A stretch of 44,042 nucleotides of DNA from Candidatus Nanohalarchaeota archaeon (GTDB lineage: Archaea > EX4484-52 > B79-G9), in the NCBI GenBank assembly GCA_030634545.1, contig DAOWAN010000004.1, positions 1-44,042 of the forward strand. The letters are read 5' to 3'. The position numbers were made by a program, and so were the translations under genes. The notes under the pieces were generated by a model. It ran no database searches. It had not been told where the DNA came from and saw only the letters and a list, made by a program, of their open reading frames with translations. Of this stretch, positions 13,361 through 38,119 are shown in pieces (the stretch's first letter is position 1; every line of letters starts with the position of its first letter).

Positions 13361-16300
13361 TCACGCAATCTCAACACTATAACTCTCTGATTCGTCTGCA
13401 TTTTCGACATCATACATCGCATAGGCTTTTGCAGGCGCAGCAAATACAATGCCCTCGTTGACTGCCTTCAAATTATAGCTAAATGTTTCACTTCCGAGCG
13501 ATCCGATATAGAAATAAACATTGTTTCCTGACAACTCATACTCTACAATATTTTCGCTTCTGCTGATTGCCCTTTCAAGAGATTTTTCATCAACCACAAA
13601 TCCCGGGGGCACAACATCCTCTACAACAACATAATAGACCTTATCTCCACTGCATGAAATACTGATTGTTACTGGCAGTGTATCACCGACACCTACTTTT
13701 GTGCGCGAAAGCTTCTTTGTGATACCAAGTGTCTTTTCATTGATGTCCTCCTGCAGTCGGACCTGCTTTACATTCAAAGTATAATATACTGTACCAGTAC
13801 CATCTTTGGAAAACTTCAAAATATTTTTCCCTACTTTATAATCAAGTCCAATATCATATACTACAGCCCTGTCATTTTCTGAAACATCGTAATTGCCAAC
13901 ATGCGCATTGTTTAGAGATACACTTATCTTTCCATCGACAGAATCACGACTTAGCTGCGCATATTCTGTAATTGTCTTTAGAACTGCTGCGGTGTCACTT
14001 GTCTGCCCCCAGCCATAGCTGCCGCGCCTGGATAGAAGCCATTCCACACTTCCCTGTACACTATCATGATACTGCGCATCTCCTGAATTAATCAGTGCGA
14101 GAGTTGCTGTAGCTGTAGTTGTTACAGCACCGCCAAGACTGTAAGAGTAATAGCTTGTACTTTTATCATCACTCCAGTACACGTTATTCCCGTCAGCCTT
14201 TTTCATACTATCAAGTTTCGATAGTACTCCTGGAAGATCTGATGTGTCACCTGCTTTTTCAAGACAGAGTGCATAAAGCGCAATGACATAAGGGCTCTTC
14301 ATATCCCCTGCTTTGTATTTCCCTGAAAGATAGTCCATCGCTCTTTTGACTGTAGATGATTTTTCATCCATGCCTGAGTTGAGCAATGCATGCGCAACTG
14401 AGGCAGTCATAGTCATATCCTCTTTTGAAAGATGTCCTGATCCTCTAAATGAGCCATCGGATTTCTGCACTGATGAGAGGTAGTTCTGTGCTCCGCTGAT
14501 ATAGACATCATCTATAAAGAATCCTGCATTTCTTGCCTCTGCAAGCCCGTAGAGAACGTACGCGCACATGAACACTTTGGTCTGGTCATTTTTATACCAT
14601 CCCCATCCCCCGTTGCTATGACGATAACCGTAAATCTTCTGCAAGCCGGAGATTATCATCTTATCCAGTTCACTTTCGAACCCAGGTGCCAACTGTCCGG
14701 ACTTTGCAAGATACTGCTTCACAATAATATCAGGGTAAAGTCCGCTCATCACCTGCTCTGCACAGCCATGTGGGTAATGCGCAAGCTGCTCTATGCTGTC
14801 AAGTGAAACTGCTTCCAAAGACGGCTGTATCACAAGACCCGCACTTGTAAATTCCGGGATGGCGCCATCAAATATCTCGAACTCTACTTCATTATTCTCA
14901 ACAACGCCGGAATAAACAGCACTCTTAATCTCTTCCTTTGGCTTAACCAGAGCCATCTTTGTCAGCCCGTCAGAGACACTACCATCAACTGAATAAGCAA
15001 GAAAACTCATATTTGCATAGCCGTAGCCTGTAAACTTTACCCGCCACCTTGCGCTCTTTGAACTGTGCGCCGGCACTACAACGGTTTTGACTGGCTCGCC
15101 GGATATGATCCTGAATTTGGATGAGGATACACCGCACCTTTTGGTAGATGAACTTACACATAATCTGCTCTCAACTGCTTTATCCAGATTATTGAATACA
15201 ACCATACTTACTGTAATCTCATCTCCGACGGTAACCTCTGTGGGCGGTGCCGCTTTCACAAAATAATCCATCTTAGATATGACGCTGTCCTTTGCACTGC
15301 CGACTTCGGCGTTCATGGTTGCTGCAAGCGCCTCAATCCTCCATGAAGTGACTGTATCGGGCAGCATTACTGGCACCTTTACCTTCCCTGCGCTGTCGGT
15401 GCGAAGTGACGGTATCCATAACGCAGTATCCGGAAAGCTGGTCCTTATCTTTATATCAACTGGAACAATTCCCTCATCTTTCCACATTGAGTCTTCTGCC
15501 AATACTTCCTCATAGCGTCCTCCCATAGCTGTCGGCGCGTTTATTGAGCGCATCATGCCTGAATCATCATAACTATCACCGGTCTCAACTGAAGCCAGTT
15601 TAGACATGGAACCGGTGGTCATATAAAACATTAAAAAAATACCTACAACAAAAACAGTGAGAAATGCAAACACCACGATAGATGATATAACAGTCACGAT
15701 TCTCGATTGGCTGCCATACTTTATGCCCTCACCAAGATATGAGATAAGCAACATAATCATCCCAATCACAAAAGACAGCAGAATCTCCACTTCGGGCTCA
15801 TATAATCTAAGAACCGCAAGAAGTAAAGGTAGAGCGGACATCATCCCCCCGGCGAAGCCAAGAGATGCAAGCCACTTGCAGCCCCGTCCTTTTATTAAAG
15901 CGCCATAAACTCTTTCAACCACAGAAATCAGTACCATAACACTTCCTACACCAAATAATAAGAATCCGATATCTTCATCCTCCACAATGTCCATCATAGC
16001 AAGCAAAATTGTCCCGATTATAACAAATATTCCGCTGACACCAAGAGCAAGGAACCTCTTATCAGCACCCTGATAATTGTGTATTTTCTTTCCTTTTTTC
16101 ATATACTTAAGATACAAAGCATATCCTGAAACAAGAATCAAGACAAGCATTCCAAGACTGAAAAAGAGATAGCCATTACCATAATTTCTCGGATTTCTGG
16201 TCGCAATACTGTTCTGTGTGCCTGCCTCACCGAAAGAATAGAGAGCTGCAAACGGGGTGAATTCATAATTCTTAAGAAGCATGATAGATTCATCAACAAC

Positions 16301-18208
16301 GCCGAGTGTGACCTGGGTGTTTGGTTTTCCAGTGTCAATTTTGAGGTCTACTATATCTCCTGGCTTATAATCGCTGTGCAGGAAATCAAGTTTCACATCA
16401 ATCTCCTTATCAGCGCATGCACTTACCTGCAATGGCTCTGATTCAATAAATCTGTTATTATATACAAATCCCTGTATGGCAGCAAAAGGGGCAATGTCCT
16501 CGTATGCGAGTAGAAGTTCGCCTCTTGCATTATCATCAAGATTCAATGCTGCGAGAGTGTTCCCAAATGGAGTGCTTACAGTAACCACAACAGGCTTATT
16601 CGCATAATGGCTCCTTGCATATACACTTATAACTGCTCTTTCGCCGGGCTTATATTCTGCCTTGTCTGACTCAAGAACTATGTCTTTCCTATATTTGTCA
16701 GGCATGCCTGAAAAATCACATCTACCACTGCAATCCCAGTAATTATCTGGTCGGAAGTTAATATAGGCTTTTGCAGATGCAGAATATGCACCACTTGTAC
16801 CTGTAACCATGATATGCAGGTAATCGGCGTCACTTGGGTAATTAAATACATAATTATACTGACTGGAAAAGAGTTTATCTTCTGAAAATATTACAGAAGA
16901 CTGTCCACGGTAATACTTAGTTACAGTTATCTTTGAATCAACATCTGATGCAGGTACACCATCTGGGTGCTGCGCTGTAATCTTCACATCCACAAGATCC
17001 CCTGTATCATAAGCATTTAAAACAGTCGAAACCTCAAGCAAAAGACCGCTGTCTACAACCAGTACACTCTTTTCCTCTGTCTGCACCTCGCCGCTTGCAG
17101 CGTCTGTAATAGTCCCCTCTATAATAAGATGGTCTCTTGGGGTCTGATAGTACAACTGATCCATATCGAATGTATACTTATATTGTCCGTCATGCAGCTT
17201 TACGGTTTCTGTAATCTTCTGATATGGTCTGCTTTCAGTGTAAATACCCAAATTAAGGTATGCTTCACTAACGGGTTCACCAAAAAGATAGGTTGCAAGA
17301 AAATCTATATCAAGCATCTCGCTTGCGACAATCCAGCTCTTTGTACTTATATCAAGATTTACTGTCGGCTTCTCATATTTCTCTACATCAACATCATAAT
17401 TTTCTGTTATGCTTCCTGCCTGCACCTCGAATGAATATGTCCCTTCATCAAGAGTTACAGAAAGCGGGAAATCAAGTGTGATCTGTCCATAATCATCGGT
17501 TTTTATCTCTTTTTTGTAAATCACAAGTCCTTCTTCATTTTTGACAGAAATATTGGCACTTTCAAAAGAGTGCGGCGTAAAAGAATCATCTGACCTTTTC
17601 CATATATATCCTGCAAAATGTACGGTGTGCCCTGGTTTGTATATCTTCCTGTCTGAATACAGATACATCCTCAAAGGTGATGAGCGAACTTCAACCTGAG
17701 TAGCATAGGATCTTTTCTTTCTGTGATTCTCTGCATGGATCTTAAGAGTATAGGTACCTGAAAGAGTTTCGGGTATTTTTTCATCAAGTACGACAAGACC
17801 ATTGGCATTTGTTGTCCCTGTAATTCTTGCTGTTGCATCGTAATTCATACGCGGCTGAAAATGAAGTTCTACTGCGCTTTTAGGCATAAACATGCCTTTG
17901 TCATCAACAACAAGCAAAAACCCGTCAAAATCTGATCCAGCATACTGGACATTAGATATGCTGCCATGTATATTCAGCACTTCACTTAGGGTCCAGTAAT
18001 TGATAAGAGGATTATAAAATAGACCGAACCCAAAAAGAAATATTGCAATAAGAACTCCTGCTTTCAGTATGGTCACTTTGCCTTGCGATAGTTCCTTACT
18101 TTTGAAAAGACATATCCTCAGTGCCACAAACACACCAAAAAGCACAGCTAGAGCCACAGCAAGCCCTATGAGCCAAAATATTGAAAAAGCAAACATATAT
18201 CTGTTCAC
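13361..18208 (-). CDS. Alpha-2-macroglobulin-like thioester protein with internal multi-TM insertion
   Basis: MG2-like YSDRKIYKPGHTVHFAGYIW; A2M-like LPDTVTSWRIEALA; thioester-like HYPHGCAEQVMSGLYP; TED-like repeats; two N-terminal TMs and about six central TM segments. Confidence 0.88.
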   Translation of the reverse strand: MNRYMFAFSIFWLIGLAVALAVLFGVFVALRICLFKSKELSQGKVTILKAGVLIAIFLFGFGLFYNPLINYWTLSEVLNIHGSISNVQYAGSDFDGFLLVVDDKGMFMPKSAVELHFQPRMNYDATARITGTTNANGLVVLDEKIPETLSGTYTLKIHAENHRKKRSYATQVEVRSSPLRMYLYSDRKIYKPGHTVHFAGYIWKRSDDSFTPHSFESANISVKNEEGLVIYKKEIKTDDYGQITLDFPLSVTLDEGTYSFEVQAGSITENYDVDVEKYEKPTVNLDISTKSWIVASEMLDIDFLATYLFGEPVSEAYLNLGIYTESRPYQKITETVKLHDGQYKYTFDMDQLYYQTPRDHLIIEGTITDAASGEVQTEEKSVLVVDSGLLLEVSTVLNAYDTGDLVDVKITAQHPDGVPASDVDSKITVTKYYRGQSSVIFSEDKLFSSQYNYVFNYPSDADYLHIMVTGTSGAYSASAKAYINFRPDNYWDCSGRCDFSGMPDKYRKDIVLESDKAEYKPGERAVISVYARSHYANKPVVVTVSTPFGNTLAALNLDDNARGELLLAYEDIAPFAAIQGFVYNNRFIESEPLQVSACADKEIDVKLDFLHSDYKPGDIVDLKIDTGKPNTQVTLGVVDESIMLLKNYEFTPFAALYSFGEAGTQNSIATRNPRNYGNGYLFFSLGMLVLILVSGYALYLKYMKKGKKIHNYQGADKRFLALGVSGIFVIIGTILLAMMDIVEDEDIGFLLFGVGSVMVLISVVERVYGALIKGRGCKWLASLGFAGGMMSALPLLLAVLRLYEPEVEILLSFVIGMIMLLISYLGEGIKYGSQSRIVTVISSIVVFAFLTVFVVGIFLMFYMTTGSMSKLASVETGDSYDDSGMMRSINAPTAMGGRYEEVLAEDSMWKDEGIVPVDIKIRTSFPDTALWIPSLRTDSAGKVKVPVMLPDTVTSWRIEALAATMNAEVGSAKDSVISKMDYFVKAAPPTEVTVGDEITVSMVVFNNLDKAVESRLCVSSSTKRCGVSSSKFRIISGEPVKTVVVPAHSSKSARWRVKFTGYGYANMSFLAYSVDGSVSDGLTKMALVKPKEEIKSAVYSGVVENNEVEFEIFDGAIPEFTSAGLVIQPSLEAVSLDSIEQLAHYPHGCAEQVMSGLYPDIIVKQYLAKSGQLAPGFESELDKMIISGLQKIYGYRHSNGGWGWYKNDQTKVFMCAYVLYGLAEARNAGFFIDDVYISGAQNYLSSVQKSDGSFRGSGHLSKEDMTMTASVAHALLNSGMDEKSSTVKRAMDYLSGKYKAGDMKSPYVIALYALCLEKAGDTSDLPGVLSKLDSMKKADGNNVYWSDDKSTSYYSYSLGGAVTTTATATLALINSGDAQYHDSVQGSVEWLLSRRGSYGWGQTSDTAAVLKTITEYAQLSRDSVDGKISVSLNNAHVGNYDVSENDRAVVYDIGLDYKVGKNILKFSKDGTGTVYYTLNVKQVRLQEDINEKTLGITKKLSRTKVGVGDTLPVTISISCSGDKVYYVVVEDVVPPGFVVDEKSLERAISRSENIVEYELSGNNVYFYIGSLGSETFSYNLKAVNEGIVFAAPAKAYAMYDVENADESESYSVEIA

Positions 18209-20031
18209 CAGACTAGTTTCTTAATCTTTTTCCTCTTTTTGAAAACCACCATAAGAACAATAAATCCGAACAGAGCATATAGAAGATACATCCCTTTTTC
18301 TTCAAATCCATATATGCTGATTCTCACAGCTTCTTCTGGCATGATGATTGACTCACCGCCGCCTGTGACCAGAAGATACTTCTTCATCTCAGGGATCTGG
18401 ATGGTTACAGGTGCGCCATGCATACTTAACTGTATATTCTGTACCGGTGCTTCCATAGACATCTGCTCGACATTTAATGCCATACTCTTCTGCGCACTAC
18501 CGACTGCATCAAAATCAATCATGTTATTATAATACTCTTTCCTTGGTGTATATGTAATCACTTCTGCATCCATTTCAGGAACGACATCTGATTTCCAGTA
18601 GATAAATGATTCCGGAAGTCCAATCTTGATATTCATATTCGTTACCGGTGCCTTATGTGTCGGCAAAACAAGATTATACGCTGAATAAATATCATCTGAG
18701 AATACGTCGCTTGTCACAACATACAATATTGTTACGCGTATAGCCTGATAGCTGCCCCCATATTTTGAAGATACTGGCAGTGGAACCTGTACGATGTTTC
18801 CTTCACCATAAGCTTTCTCTGACTCTGAATTGACAATAGCGCCCCAGAATACAGAATTATCCGGTAGTTCAATATCAAGATACTTGCCGGTCTCTGTGTT
18901 CACTATCTGATAATTTGCTTTTACAATCGCAAACCCTCTCTTGGTCGGGAAGATATCATAATTTACACTATTGATGTTTGTCGCAAGATGCTTTTTCTCT
19001 TTCAGCTTCTCTTTATCAAAACTCAAAGATCCTCTCCCTGTATATAGGCTGTCAAGATTATACCCTGAGGGTACAAATCCGGCAATGCTGTTCAGGAATG
19101 TTGCCTCATACTTAGTGATTCTTGTAAGTTCTGATTCAACACTATCAAGCTTATAGCTGTCTGAAGAATATAGAGCGACACCATAATTAATATCCCCGGC
19201 ATTTTCGAAGACAGGCATTGAAGCAAAACTGTCTGAAGAGAGCACAAACTCCAGACCAGATATCTGAAACTGATTTGCAGGCACTTTCTTTTTAATGATA
19301 AACGGTGTGGTGGACATAATCTCAAATCCACTGTCATCAAATGAACTGAACTCAAGTCCTGAAGGCAGACTAATTTCTACTTTATCTATCAGTTCATCTG
19401 CACTGACATCACAAAATAATTTCATGGTATTCAAAGAACCTGCAAGCACAAGTGCATTACATGCAACACGGATATCAGCATCATTGTTTACTGTGCCGAA
19501 GGATACGCTTACGGTCTTTGCATACCTGTCAGTAAAAAGCCAGTCAACACTTTTCTCTTCTTTATGCATGGGAACAGGGCTTGTTGCACTCATGACAATA
19601 TCATCAAACCTGAAATTGACTTTCACAGACACACGGTCAACACCGGAAGGGATAGATGTGCTAAAAGAATTCAATGCTCCTACACCTTCAGCCGTTACCT
19701 GTATCTGGTAATTCTTGTCTTTTAAGACAGGATGCTTAAGGACATTACCTGTAATGTAATTGCTCTCGCCAATGGTCACCCAGGTCTTTCCTGAATCTGC
19801 GGACACTTTCACACTTTTCACAACAAAAGTCGAGCCTAATTGGACACTGGCAGTACCATCATTCATGCCGAGAATCTCAATTGTCTCAAATATCTTATAG
19901 CTGCCGTCACTGTAGATATCCACTTCCCGGTCATAGGTTTTATAATGGAACCAACTGTCGCTATAGGCTGCCTGCGCAAAAAGACTAAGCACAAGTAAAA
20001 CCGAGAGCGCACCAATAATTCTTCGAGTCAT
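18205..20031 (-). CDS. Signal-peptide-bearing, C-terminally membrane-anchored protein of unknown function (A2M operon)
   Basis: N-terminal hydrophobic signal, C-terminal TM + KKRKKIKK; overlaps the A2M start by GTGA; ATG 20031 after AGGTGA. Confidence 0.8.
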   Translation of the reverse strand: MTRRIIGALSVLLVLSLFAQAAYSDSWFHYKTYDREVDIYSDGSYKIFETIEILGMNDGTASVQLGSTFVVKSVKVSADSGKTWVTIGESNYITGNVLKHPVLKDKNYQIQVTAEGVGALNSFSTSIPSGVDRVSVKVNFRFDDIVMSATSPVPMHKEEKSVDWLFTDRYAKTVSVSFGTVNNDADIRVACNALVLAGSLNTMKLFCDVSADELIDKVEISLPSGLEFSSFDDSGFEIMSTTPFIIKKKVPANQFQISGLEFVLSSDSFASMPVFENAGDINYGVALYSSDSYKLDSVESELTRITKYEATFLNSIAGFVPSGYNLDSLYTGRGSLSFDKEKLKEKKHLATNINSVNYDIFPTKRGFAIVKANYQIVNTETGKYLDIELPDNSVFWGAIVNSESEKAYGEGNIVQVPLPVSSKYGGSYQAIRVTILYVVTSDVFSDDIYSAYNLVLPTHKAPVTNMNIKIGLPESFIYWKSDVVPEMDAEVITYTPRKEYYNNMIDFDAVGSAQKSMALNVEQMSMEAPVQNIQLSMHGAPVTIQIPEMKKYLLVTGGGESIIMPEEAVRISIYGFEEKGMYLLYALFGFIVLMVVFKKRKKIKKLVW

Positions 20032-20040
20032 AAAAATCAC

Positions 20041-20676
20041 CTATCTGACGATACTTGCTTTCTGAGCAGTATTCATCATCATATCCTCCATCATGAACCC
20101 AGATTGGCTTGTGGCACCACTTATATTGAAAAACAGATCCACAAACTGAGTCATCACAAAAAGGATGATTATAGCAGATATCAGCATGACTACAATCGCA
20201 GTTCCTTCTTCAGCAGAGCCAAGAATCCTGAATGTCTTTGCAAGGTATATCAGCCCCGCGATTATTGAAATAAAGAGCGTGAACGAATGGATGACAGCAG
20301 GAGAGTGACCTGTGTATGTATATAGTACATTCAAAGGCAGGATTGCAATAGCCACAATCATGGCAACTGCAAATGTGATTGAAAGCGATGCCATAAGATC
20401 CCCTGGACTCATCTTGACTCCAAATACCTTAATTATAATGTATAGTGTGATGTAGGGTACAAGCCCGGTCAAAAAAAGTGCTGCCGGAAACTTGACCATA
20501 TGCCATGCAGCAGTTGATATATCTCCTGCTATAAAACCATAGACAAAGCCGTATATGGCTGAAAAAAATATCATTGCACCTAAAAATATCTTTGTGCCAC
20601 CCGGATTATTCTTAAGACCTTTAATTGTATCATTAGGAGACTCAAATAAACCAATAACTGATTTCACAAAACCCAT
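20041..20676 (-). CDS. Multi-pass membrane protein (Yip1-like)
   Basis: About five hydrophobic segments with N-terminal FESPNDTIKGLKNNP pattern. Confidence 0.65.
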   Translation of the reverse strand: MGFVKSVIGLFESPNDTIKGLKNNPGGTKIFLGAMIFFSAIYGFVYGFIAGDISTAAWHMVKFPAALFLTGLVPYITLYIIIKVFGVKMSPGDLMASLSITFAVAMIVAIAILPLNVLYTYTGHSPAVIHSFTLFISIIAGLIYLAKTFRILGSAEEGTAIVVMLISAIIILFVMTQFVDLFFNISGATSQSGFMMEDMMMNTAQKASIVR

Positions 20677-34319: not shown

Positions 34320-35045
34320 TTATATTTTCAAGATCAGATTATTTGTTCTCAACCATTCTTTTCTTTGTTCGTATTCAGGCAATATTCTTTTTACCTCATT
34401 CCAAAACAGATCAGAATGATTTTTTTGGACCATATGGCATAATTCATGAACAATAACATAATCAATTATTGAGGTATTTGCAAGAATAATTCTCCAGTTA
34501 TATCTGATTTGATTCTTCTTGGAACAACTACCCCATTTATCTTTTAATCCAGTTATGATTACCGTTTTTGGTTCCACATTAAAATATTTTAGGTATTTCT
34601 TAACTCTCTCATTAATTAATTTTTCAGCTCTATTTTTGTAGAATTCAATGAATAAAGGTCTGATTATTGAATTATATTGACTTTCATTAAATTTAGATGG
34701 AATAATTGCTTTGAATTGTGATTTATTAAATTCAATAGATGGAAGTTGTTTTTTAGATTTTGTTATTTTAAGAGCGTACCTCCTACCTCTTAATAAGAAT
34801 TTTTCACCACTCACGAACTCTTTTACTGAATCATATTTGAGAATTTCCGTCATTCTGTCAATGTTATTAATAATCCATTTATCTTTTCTATGTAACTGTT
34901 TAATAATATCTTCTTTTTTCATTACTTTGGGAGCTTTAACTGTGAATCCTTTATTAAAGTCTATGACTAATTCAATTGTTTTTTGTCTATTGGTGTTTAC
35001 AAGTTCGTATTCTACTTTAGTATTTCCTATTTGTAGATAATCCAT
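34320..35045 (-). CDS. YgjP/SprT-like zinc metallopeptidase (DUF45)
   Basis: RYNWRIILANTSIIDYVIVHELCHMVQKNHSDLFWNEVKRILPEY. Confidence 0.9.
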   Translation of the reverse strand: MDYLQIGNTKVEYELVNTNRQKTIELVIDFNKGFTVKAPKVMKKEDIIKQLHRKDKWIINNIDRMTEILKYDSVKEFVSGEKFLLRGRRYALKITKSKKQLPSIEFNKSQFKAIIPSKFNESQYNSIIRPLFIEFYKNRAEKLINERVKKYLKYFNVEPKTVIITGLKDKWGSCSKKNQIRYNWRIILANTSIIDYVIVHELCHMVQKNHSDLFWNEVKRILPEYEQRKEWLRTNNLILKI

Positions 35046-38000
35046 CACTTCACCCCGATGTTAAACATCAGGTTAAATATTGTTTTGGCAATATTTTCCG
35101 CTGATTTTACGTCCATATTTAGTTTAATCCATAATGGTTTTTTTATTGCTCCAAGCATTCGTTGTTGTTCCGTAGGTTTATTTCTCCAATCAATACCTTC
35201 AAACTCTTCTTTGAGATTAGTGAATAGTTCTTTCGATACTTGCTCTAAAAGTTTGATTTCTTCATTAGACAAAGAAATCTCTTTATCGCCTTTAGAGGTG
35301 TCGGACTGAATTTTTGAATTTCTTAAAATAGAATAAACTGCATATTCTTCAGTTGATAATTCATGCTTCTTTGCCACTTCAGTTGGGTCTAAATCATCCT
35401 TTAAATGATTTAATTTTTCAAGAAGTTCTTTGTCATTGGTAAGTTTTCCCTCGTGATCGATAATTATTTTCTCTAACTTTTCTCTTAATGAGGTATAGTA
35501 AATAGGATTTGTAGGCATAAGATTACATATTGTAGTTCTTACCTTGCTTTCAATAATGCTCGCTTTAGCTCTATCAGATTGATTCTTATTTAGAAGTTCT
35601 GTAAATTCAGAAGAATATATAGATATTTGTCCACTGATAACACTAATCCCTTTAGATTCTAAATATTCATTAATTAGTGCTTTTACCTTTTCACAGGCAT
35701 CCGTTACGTTTGGTTTGTCTGCTAAATCATATGTTTGTCTCATAATGTGGTAAAGTTTACCATAAAACAGAAGACTTTTCTTGAATTGGTTTGCTTCTTT
35801 ATTAGGCATCAGATTATTTACATAGATAATGAACTCTTTGTAAGCTTTTTCAAAACGTATTCTTGTGTCTTTAGCATTTAGAACATCAAGAATACATTTG
35901 TCGATATATTCCTCTTCGTTGTATGATATTTGAATTTTTTCAAAGAATCTTTTGAGTTTGTTTAGAGCTGCTTCTGCTTTAGATGCATCTGCTACTAATG
36001 GCTGCATATAATCACCTATGTCACCATCATTAAACACATTCAGGGCTTCCTTGAGTCTATTGCTAATACCACAATAATCTATAAGTAGACCGTAATGTTT
36101 GTTTTTAGTGTAAACTCTATTCACTCTTGCAACTGCCTGCATCAGGTTATGTTCTTTAAGTGGTTTATCAAGATACATAACTTGCTCGATTGGAGCATCA
36201 AATCCCGTTAGAAGCATATCACAAACGATAATAAAGGACAAGTCATCTTTTCCACAAAATGGTTTTCGAAATTTCTTAATAATTGCTTTTTGTTGAGCTT
36301 TTGTCTTAAAAGAGTTTTTAATAATTTCTCCATAGACGGGTTCCTTTTTTATATCATTCGCTAATTTATCTCTTAGTGGGTTTTTATGGTCATCTCCAGA
36401 GATGATTATTTCAGATTGTAAATTGGTTGTTTCATCTAAGAATTTCTTATATTTAATCGCAGAGATTTTAGAAGGTGTTACAATTTGCGCTTTAAATCCT
36501 TCTGGTTTTATTGCCCCTTCATAGTGTTTGACAATATCTTCACAAATCTCTTTAATTCTTTTGCTTGATTCGGATATTGCCAAATAATTTCCGTATTTCT
36601 TCTTGATTTCTTCCTTTTCTTCGTCAGCGTATTCTGCAAATTCTTCATCGAATCGTAAATCTAATTCACTGCTTTTGATATGAACTTTCTCTAAACGTGC
36701 CTGATATTTTATTTCAACTGTAGCGCCATCAGCAACTGCTTGTTTAGGCAGATATTTGTCAATATAGTTCCCAAAAACTTTCCTTGTAGACTTATCTTTC
36801 TTATCAATTGGGGTTCCAGTAAATGCAATAAAAATTGCATTAGGAATTGCAGTTCTTAAGTTCAGAGCCAATTCCCCGTAGTTTGTTCTATGCGCTTCAT
36901 CTGTGAATACAATTATGTTTTTGTTGTTTGACAATAGTGGATGGATTTCTCCCTTTTTTGTCTGGAACTTTTGAATAGTTGTAAATATTGTTTTTCCTCG
37001 TGGTTGTGAGAGTTCTTCTCTTAAAGTTGCTATTGAATCTATTCTTTGAGGGTTTGGAAAATTACAGTTTTTGAATGTTGTTGATATTTGGTCATCAAGG
37101 TCTACCCTGTCTGTCACTATCAATAAAGTTGGATTTTCCAAGATGTTATTGTGCCTTACGTTTATTGAGGTAAATGTCATTGCCAGTGATTTACCTGAAC
37201 CCTGTGTGTGCCATATGACGCCACCTTTGTGTTTTTTAAGGTTCTTGATTATTTTATCACTTGCAATATATTGATTATATTTTGCTAGTTTTTTTAGTAA
37301 CTTATTATCTTCTACTTCAAAAACAATATAGTTTCTGATTATGTTTAATATCGCTTTCTTTTCAAAAATAGATATCAATAGAATGTCTTGAGATGTGAGT
37401 TCATCTCTGTTTAATAATTCTTTAAGTTCGTCTCTAGTTTTTGGATAAGGAATTTTCCATTCCTGAAAGAATCTTGAAGGCGCATAAGTTGCGGTATATT
37501 TTGCCTGATATCTTGATGTTGCCACCAATAGCTGGTTTGGAATAAATAAGTTAGGATACTCTCTTTTGTAATGTGTCAATTGCTGAATTGCCTGATCAAT
37601 TGGCTCTTCAATCTGGGGCGCTTTACATTCAATGACTGCTATTGGGATTCCGTTGATGAAAATTATGATATCCGGGATGATAGCAGAGTTATTTCCTGAC
37701 TTAACATAGAATTGATTGACTGCGGTAAATTCATTGTTATTGGGTTTGTCCCAATCAATAACTTTGACTGTTTGGGATTTTTTCCCCTGACCCAAATCTT
37801 TCTTGATTGATAAGTGATTTATGAGTTTGTAGTATAATTTCTGATTAGCTTCAATATTAGAGGTTGATTGGATAAGGGTTATTTCCCTTACGATTTTGGT
37901 TATATCGGTTTCATCCATCCAAGGATTTAGTTTTTTTATTTGTTTTGTTAAAATGTCTTTAAGGAATACTTCGTTGCTTTCTTTCTGAATGGTTCTACCG

Positions 38001-38119
38001 TCAATATAAGTGTATTTCAACTTTTTTTGTAACAAATCAAGCGCAGGCTTCTCAACAAGTTCGTATTCCTTGATTTGGATGTCTTCAATGTCTTTTAATT
38101 CTTTGTTTGTGATTGTCAT
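35045..38119 (-). CDS. hsdR: Type I restriction enzyme R subunit
   Basis: PIAVIECKAP nuclease motif, HTQGSGKSLAM Walker A, VFTDEAHRT, FIAFTGTPI, QAVARVNR. Confidence 0.95.
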   Translation of the reverse strand: MTITNKELKDIEDIQIKEYELVEKPALDLLQKKLKYTYIDGRTIQKESNEVFLKDILTKQIKKLNPWMDETDITKIVREITLIQSTSNIEANQKLYYKLINHLSIKKDLGQGKKSQTVKVIDWDKPNNNEFTAVNQFYVKSGNNSAIIPDIIIFINGIPIAVIECKAPQIEEPIDQAIQQLTHYKREYPNLFIPNQLLVATSRYQAKYTATYAPSRFFQEWKIPYPKTRDELKELLNRDELTSQDILLISIFEKKAILNIIRNYIVFEVEDNKLLKKLAKYNQYIASDKIIKNLKKHKGGVIWHTQGSGKSLAMTFTSINVRHNNILENPTLLIVTDRVDLDDQISTTFKNCNFPNPQRIDSIATLREELSQPRGKTIFTTIQKFQTKKGEIHPLLSNNKNIIVFTDEAHRTNYGELALNLRTAIPNAIFIAFTGTPIDKKDKSTRKVFGNYIDKYLPKQAVADGATVEIKYQARLEKVHIKSSELDLRFDEEFAEYADEEKEEIKKKYGNYLAISESSKRIKEICEDIVKHYEGAIKPEGFKAQIVTPSKISAIKYKKFLDETTNLQSEIIISGDDHKNPLRDKLANDIKKEPVYGEIIKNSFKTKAQQKAIIKKFRKPFCGKDDLSFIIVCDMLLTGFDAPIEQVMYLDKPLKEHNLMQAVARVNRVYTKNKHYGLLIDYCGISNRLKEALNVFNDGDIGDYMQPLVADASKAEAALNKLKRFFEKIQISYNEEEYIDKCILDVLNAKDTRIRFEKAYKEFIIYVNNLMPNKEANQFKKSLLFYGKLYHIMRQTYDLADKPNVTDACEKVKALINEYLESKGISVISGQISIYSSEFTELLNKNQSDRAKASIIESKVRTTICNLMPTNPIYYTSLREKLEKIIIDHEGKLTNDKELLEKLNHLKDDLDPTEVAKKHELSTEEYAVYSILRNSKIQSDTSKGDKEISLSNEEIKLLEQVSKELFTNLKEEFEGIDWRNKPTEQQRMLGAIKKPLWIKLNMDVKSAENIAKTIFNLMFNIGVK

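Follow-up and report, generated by a model that had tools for sequence, protein, structure and literature searches.

A predicted membrane-woven alpha-2-macroglobulin-like thioester protein of a Candidatus Nanohalarchaeota archaeon, with transmembrane helices at the bait-region position

Alpha-2-macroglobulins (A2Ms) and complement proteins are textbook extracellular proteins, and the locus described here raises the question of what a polytopic membrane block is doing in the middle of such a chain. The window, i.e., the whole stretch of 44,042 nucleotides analyzed (contig DAOWAN010000004.1, GenBank assembly GCA_030634545.1), contains an A2M-like gene encoding 1,615 amino acids at positions 13361 to 18208 of the minus strand, on which all features of this protein and its operon lie. 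The gene is a single open frame with a GTG start that overlaps the stop codon of the upstream gene (GTGA). Pfam identifies MG2 (amino acids [aa] 180 to 266, positions 17411 to 17671; E value, 3e-21), MG3, A2M_BRD (aa 512 to 645, positions 16274 to 16675; 1e-12), which ends in the MG6a strand GVVDESIMLL, the A2M domain corresponding to the second half of MG6 (aa 921 to 1015, positions 15164 to 15448; match at aa 928 to 1015, 5.5e-18), the thioester domain (TED) (aa 1124 to 1416, positions 13961 to 14839; 1.2e-42), and the C-terminal MG domain (bMG10/A2M_recep; aa 1499 to 1600, positions 13409 to 13714; 7.5e-10), all in the canonical A2M order. MG2, A2M_BRD, A2M, and TED (4 of 4) pass the curated cutoffs. 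In a phmmer search, the top PDB match was human A2M (1e-46). An AlphaFold2 model of aa 495 to 1615, built from 48 sequences (mean pLDDT, 72), contains the MG6a strands and, beyond a linker, confident beta domains and an alpha-alpha toroid TED with pLDDT values mostly above 90, and its Foldseek matches are A2ML1 (E value, 2.5e-48), CD109, A2M, C5, and TEP1. By domain order and modeled fold, the protein is a member of the A2M/thioester-protein superfamily, as the initial annotation had recognized. The HGCAEQ motif and thioester-domain-like helices on which that annotation relied lie at aa 1147 to 1152 (positions 14753 to 14770) and in a confidently modeled thioester-domain fold, respectively, and the thioester bond itself is predicted. 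HGCAEQ is retained in the ortholog of genome G003 and in a paralog on contig C29 of the source metagenome-assembled genome (MAG), and a relative from another archaeal phylum, G318, has YGCVEQ.

Two regions of the protein are predicted to cross the membrane. Hydropathy places two N-terminal transmembrane (TM) helices at aa 10 to 28 and 45 to 63, forming an N-out/C-out hairpin with a short basic inside loop (aa 8 to 64, positions 18017 to 18187), and six more at aa 680 to 698, 719 to 737, 746 to 764, 782 to 800, 807 to 825, and 837 to 855, forming a block at aa 680 to 864 (positions 15617 to 16171). No segment beyond these eight exceeded the hydropathy threshold. The AlphaFold2 model agrees with the roughly six hydrophobic segments read earlier from the sequence in giving six long helices at aa 685 to 864, at medium confidence (pLDDT of about 50 to 64), followed by a disordered segment at aa 860 to 913 (pLDDT below 50). 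A profile built from the window protein, the G003 ortholog, and the C29 paralog was aligned to human A2M; the alignment ends at VDQSVLLMK, picks up again at VRKYFPETW, and thus breaks exactly across the bait-region domain, which bears out the earlier placement of the block roughly at the bait region. Between these points, human A2M has the bait-region domain and the window protein has the TM block followed by a linker of 57 residues (aa 861 to 917, positions 15458 to 15628, between TM6 and MG6b), so the bait-region-domain position inside MG6 is occupied by different content. The linker is the least conserved stretch, with 49% identity to G003, compared with 68% for the TM block, 81% for TED, and 85% for MG6b. 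This low conservation is as expected for a bait, and cleavage of the linker is itself a prediction.

An assembly chimera or a chance hydrophobic stretch would explain such a layout trivially, and the source MAG is fragmented and 7.4% contaminated. However, the same gene, block included, recurs at 70 to 76% identity in a further two MAGs from this genus, which excludes the chimera that the initial annotation had named as a refutation, and the parity and charge pattern of the block described below also argue against this reading, leaving it a negligible chance. The closest named record is that of a Candidatus Nanohalarchaeota MAG from the Guaymas Basin. The G318 relative is 36% identical overall, with its A2M split across two overlapping contig ends. 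A second A2M in the same MAG as the window, the C29 paralog (L011:12583-17847, genome G000), is 24 to 25% identical and has an 8-TM block, and its nearest neighbor in a quick-method tree is an Omnitrophota protein, L052. Since the source MAG is oversized (2.18 Mb versus 1.2 to 1.3 Mb for its genus) as well as contaminated, C29 may come from another organism. Another family of the same order has a different TED protein (HGCPEQ) without TMs (G033, L012:3-3068), with repeated FNDVVYLAKHYY segments at its C terminus.

The same architecture, which the initial annotation had proposed to look for in other archaea, was found in several archaeal groups and also in bacteria. A scan of named genomes and TED scans of archaeal phyla, covering mainly proteins with the CxEQ motif, yielded 29 A2Ms in which TMs occupy the bait locus, along with about 60 others that lack a block. 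The archaeal members are those of the window, G003, G002, C29, and G318 and seven from one further archaeal phylum; the remaining 17 of the 29 are from Chloroflexi, Verrucomicrobiota, Planctomycetota, Omnitrophota, and Deltaproteobacteria. In the phylum to which G038 belongs, a TED scan returned weak partial matches alone. Counted by a simple hydropathy rule, the locus contains six TMs in 16 proteins, two in 9, eight in 3, and ten in 1, i.e., an even number in 29 of 29. When the N-terminal side is taken as outside, the share of lysine and arginine is 21.8% in the loops then required to lie inside, compared with 9.0% in the outside loops, so the block A2Ms follow the positive-inside rule at the level of sequence. 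Both results uphold the earlier suggestion that an even TM number would keep the two halves of the protein outside the cell. The parity is strong but not independent evidence, because a single simple rule was used to count the TMs and the 29 proteins are relatives of one another. Lone hydrophobic matches in the block-free A2Ms were rejected as TMs; they correspond to the VDE[AS] strand of MG6 or, in one case, to a signal peptide. The block begins 43 residues after the MG6 VDES strand in the window protein, about 95 to 129 residues after it in bacteria, and 139 residues after it in the 2-TM protein L083. Its sequence is not conserved between lineages, and the outside variable linker after the last TM is retained in every class of block A2M. 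Blastp found no match between the window block and the bacterial blocks, and common descent of all blocks is therefore not claimed. The window clade forms a very long branch in the quick-method tree, which does not settle its place among the bacterial A2Ms.

The even parity follows from growth of the block by hairpins. The G003 protein (L009:909-6146) has ten TMs at the bait locus because its 4-TM unit (TM2 to TM5) is duplicated in tandem, over 134 residues and four TMs with an alignment score of 453. In the window protein, this inner unit occupies aa 712 to 836 (positions 15701 to 16075), and TM2-TM3 and TM4-TM5 look like an internal hairpin repeat, since they align without gaps with a score of 56, compared with 31 ± 6.6 for shuffled sequences (7 of 2,000). 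In G318, the inner 4-TM unit is absent, and a single hairpin is present whose first TM aligns with TM1 of the window block. Growth by hairpins speaks against a conserved function of the inner TMs in transport or catalysis, and we propose that the block is a hairpin-built anchor, able to grow by duplication without a change of topology.

The A2M gene is the last of three. It is preceded by a gene (positions 18205 to 20040) encoding a 611-aa protein of no known family with a signal peptide, an ectodomain of about 550 aa, and a C-terminal TM, and this is preceded by a gene (positions 20041 to 20676) encoding a 211-aa Yip1-like protein with five TMs, co-encoded with the A2M. G318 has the same three-gene order, with a 588-aa partner (E value, 1e-63; 28% identical) and a Yip1-like protein (1e-33) that passes the Pfam Yip1 cutoff. 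The three genes are likely to form one system. A PDB profile search with four partner sequences yielded no match for the 611-aa protein, and its AlphaFold2 model, built from 2 sequences, has a pLDDT of 31. No regulator gene adjoins the window A2M. A comparison with the PADLOC models of known antiphage defense systems gave no match. The window also encodes a type I restriction enzyme R subunit (HSDR_N and SWI2_SNF2 domains) at positions 35045 to 38119.

From sequence, structural models, and analogy to known A2Ms, we consider it slightly better than an even chance that the protein serves the archaeal cell surface as an A2M thioester trap woven through the membrane. The two N-terminal TMs, together with TM1 of the block, would hold the N-terminal half, from MG1 to MG6a; the chain would cross the membrane six times, reemerge, and continue as a flexible outside linker in place of the bait, which would lead straight into MG6b-CUB-TED-CTMG. 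A protease at the membrane surface would cut this linker outside TM6, and since the strand is held by TM6, such a cut would set it free. As in ECAM, the C-terminal domain would then release TED, exposing the Cys-Gln thioester, which would bind the protease, or a nearby nucleophile, covalently. With the N-terminal half still anchored in the membrane, the complex would remain on the cell. The trap would probably act with the co-encoded ectoprotein and the Yip1-like protein, possibly in a complex. Protease trapping, like thioester formation and bait cleavage as its trigger, is inferred here from knowledge of the family.

Against such a trap, a TM block within MG6 could impede the extensive domain rearrangements that A2Ms are known to undergo, and genes beside some relatives favor signaling over trapping. 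The main rival is accordingly a transmembrane sensor of proteases or damage, in which the TMs would relay bait cleavage or thioester capture on the outside to an output in the cytoplasm, with covalent capture in a secondary role. It is a serious one, because an anti-sigma domain and sigma factor genes accompany the layout in some bacteria. An ECF sigma factor gene lies directly upstream of the TM-block A2M in four loci (L052:330-6079, L045:819-6659, L074:5508-11366, and L095:236-6381). The A2M of Omnitrophota L052, whose gene overlaps the sigma factor gene, starts with a zf-HC2 anti-sigma domain (5.6e-7), and in those of Verrucomicrobiota L045, L074, and L095, the first TM is preceded by a cytoplasmic segment, about 115 to 140 aa long. 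In addition, mutually homologous proteins with a winged helix and 9 to 11 TMs are encoded just after the A2M in three of the seven 2-TM archaeal cases (L160:7614-8948, L163:6440-8008, and L167:2967-4586). The window protein, however, has no cytoplasmic domain, its inside loops being short (about 10 to 18 aa); it shares its operon with a Yip1-like protein and an ectoprotein rather than a regulator, and its closest relative from another phylum lacks the inner four TMs. We regard a sensor as unlikely here.

Two further readings concern what the thioester or the block would act on. The thioesters of C3b and TEP1 bind surfaces, host attachment is frequent in small archaea of this kind, and the Foldseek search places TEP1 and complement among the nearest folds, all of which would suit a complement-like covalent adhesin whose activated thioester, instead of binding proteases, would fix the small archaeon to a surface or to the cell of a host. 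Yet no adhesion domain was found in the window protein, a surface binder would not need a bait-like variable linker, and the A2Ms of the episymbiont Vampirococcus have been interpreted as a shield against host proteases (PMC8080830); an adhesin is improbable. The position of the block at the bait locus would also fit intramembrane proteolysis, with the TM block itself as the bait and a rhomboid or site-2 protease as the cutter, but the retention, across all classes, of a linker past the final TM and the variability of the block between lineages make this very improbable.

The trap proposed here shares parts with several known systems. Human A2M, A2ML1, and CD109, the best PDB matches, have the same MG domains, split MG6, TED with CxEQ, and CTMG but are soluble or GPI anchored, with an extracellular bait-region domain free of TMs. 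Bacterial type I A2Ms (ECAM YfhM and Salmonella SaA2M) are likewise membrane tethered, with a thioester and a bait-region domain in the corresponding MG domain, and in ECAM, a strand released by cutting of the bait drives TED off CTMG (PMC4498604). They have ten MG domains and differ in having only an N-terminal anchor, at a lipobox, two extra N-terminal MG domains, and no TM block; in the window protein, a pair of N-terminal TMs takes the place of the lipobox, bMG10 was the only bMG domain found, and the locus lacks the PBP1C partner. The type II A2M of Pseudomonas, MagD, is also co-encoded with membrane partners, of which MagB (589 aa, one TM) keeps it at the membrane (PMC5764988). MagD has neither CxEQ nor a TM of its own, both of which the window protein possesses; the TM of the window partner is C-terminal, with no recognized homology to MagB, and the three-gene operon has no recognized mag homologs, in contrast to the six-gene mag operon. 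The archaeal A2M homologs of Makarova et al. (2021) likewise have TED and CxEQ, and the text of that study describes signal peptides and varied domain organizations and does not mention a TM block at the bait locus (PMC8416519).

A separate observation concerns the thioester itself. In a set of 17 bacterial A2M genes, all 17 have TGA at the thioester Cys codon of GCxEQ (G-TGA-FEQ or MEQ), with the frame open on both sides (L021:10688-10690, L026:2212, L028:10775, L029:10449, L030:2159, L032:5782, L037:10299, L040:5446, L042:3897 and 10579, L048:1268, L070:3549, L071:13337, L078:3800, L079:3772, L082:4744, and L091:13403). This TGA probably encodes selenocysteine, which would make these proteins putative selenoester A2Ms. 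SelB scores above the cutoff in 13 of 15 tested TGA-type genomes versus 11 of 20 Cys-type genomes. In several Chloroflexi, the TGA is followed by a hairpin, but no structure common to the TGA-type genes was found. Nine of the 17 also carry a TM block.

Known A2Ms are soluble, lipid anchored, GPI anchored, or held by a partner, as MagD is by MagB (PMC5764988), and no report of membrane-block, anti-sigma-fused, or selenocysteine A2Ms was found in the open-access literature searched. Complement C3, C4, and C5 carry the anaphylatoxin domain as an extra cargo inserted in the MG6 region. That cargo is a soluble domain, whereas the cargo of the window protein spans the membrane. A membrane-threaded bait region with even parity in two domains of life would add membrane hairpins to the bait and the anaphylatoxin as a third type of cargo of MG6, and the duplication of hairpins shows clearly how a membrane domain can grow while its topology is preserved. 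Tentatively, membrane-woven A2Ms may be a widespread and unrecognized archaeal and bacterial class, wired to regulation in several lineages, in which a cut bait would report protease attack. The layout offers a direct way to test trapping versus sensing of protease attack at the prokaryotic surface.
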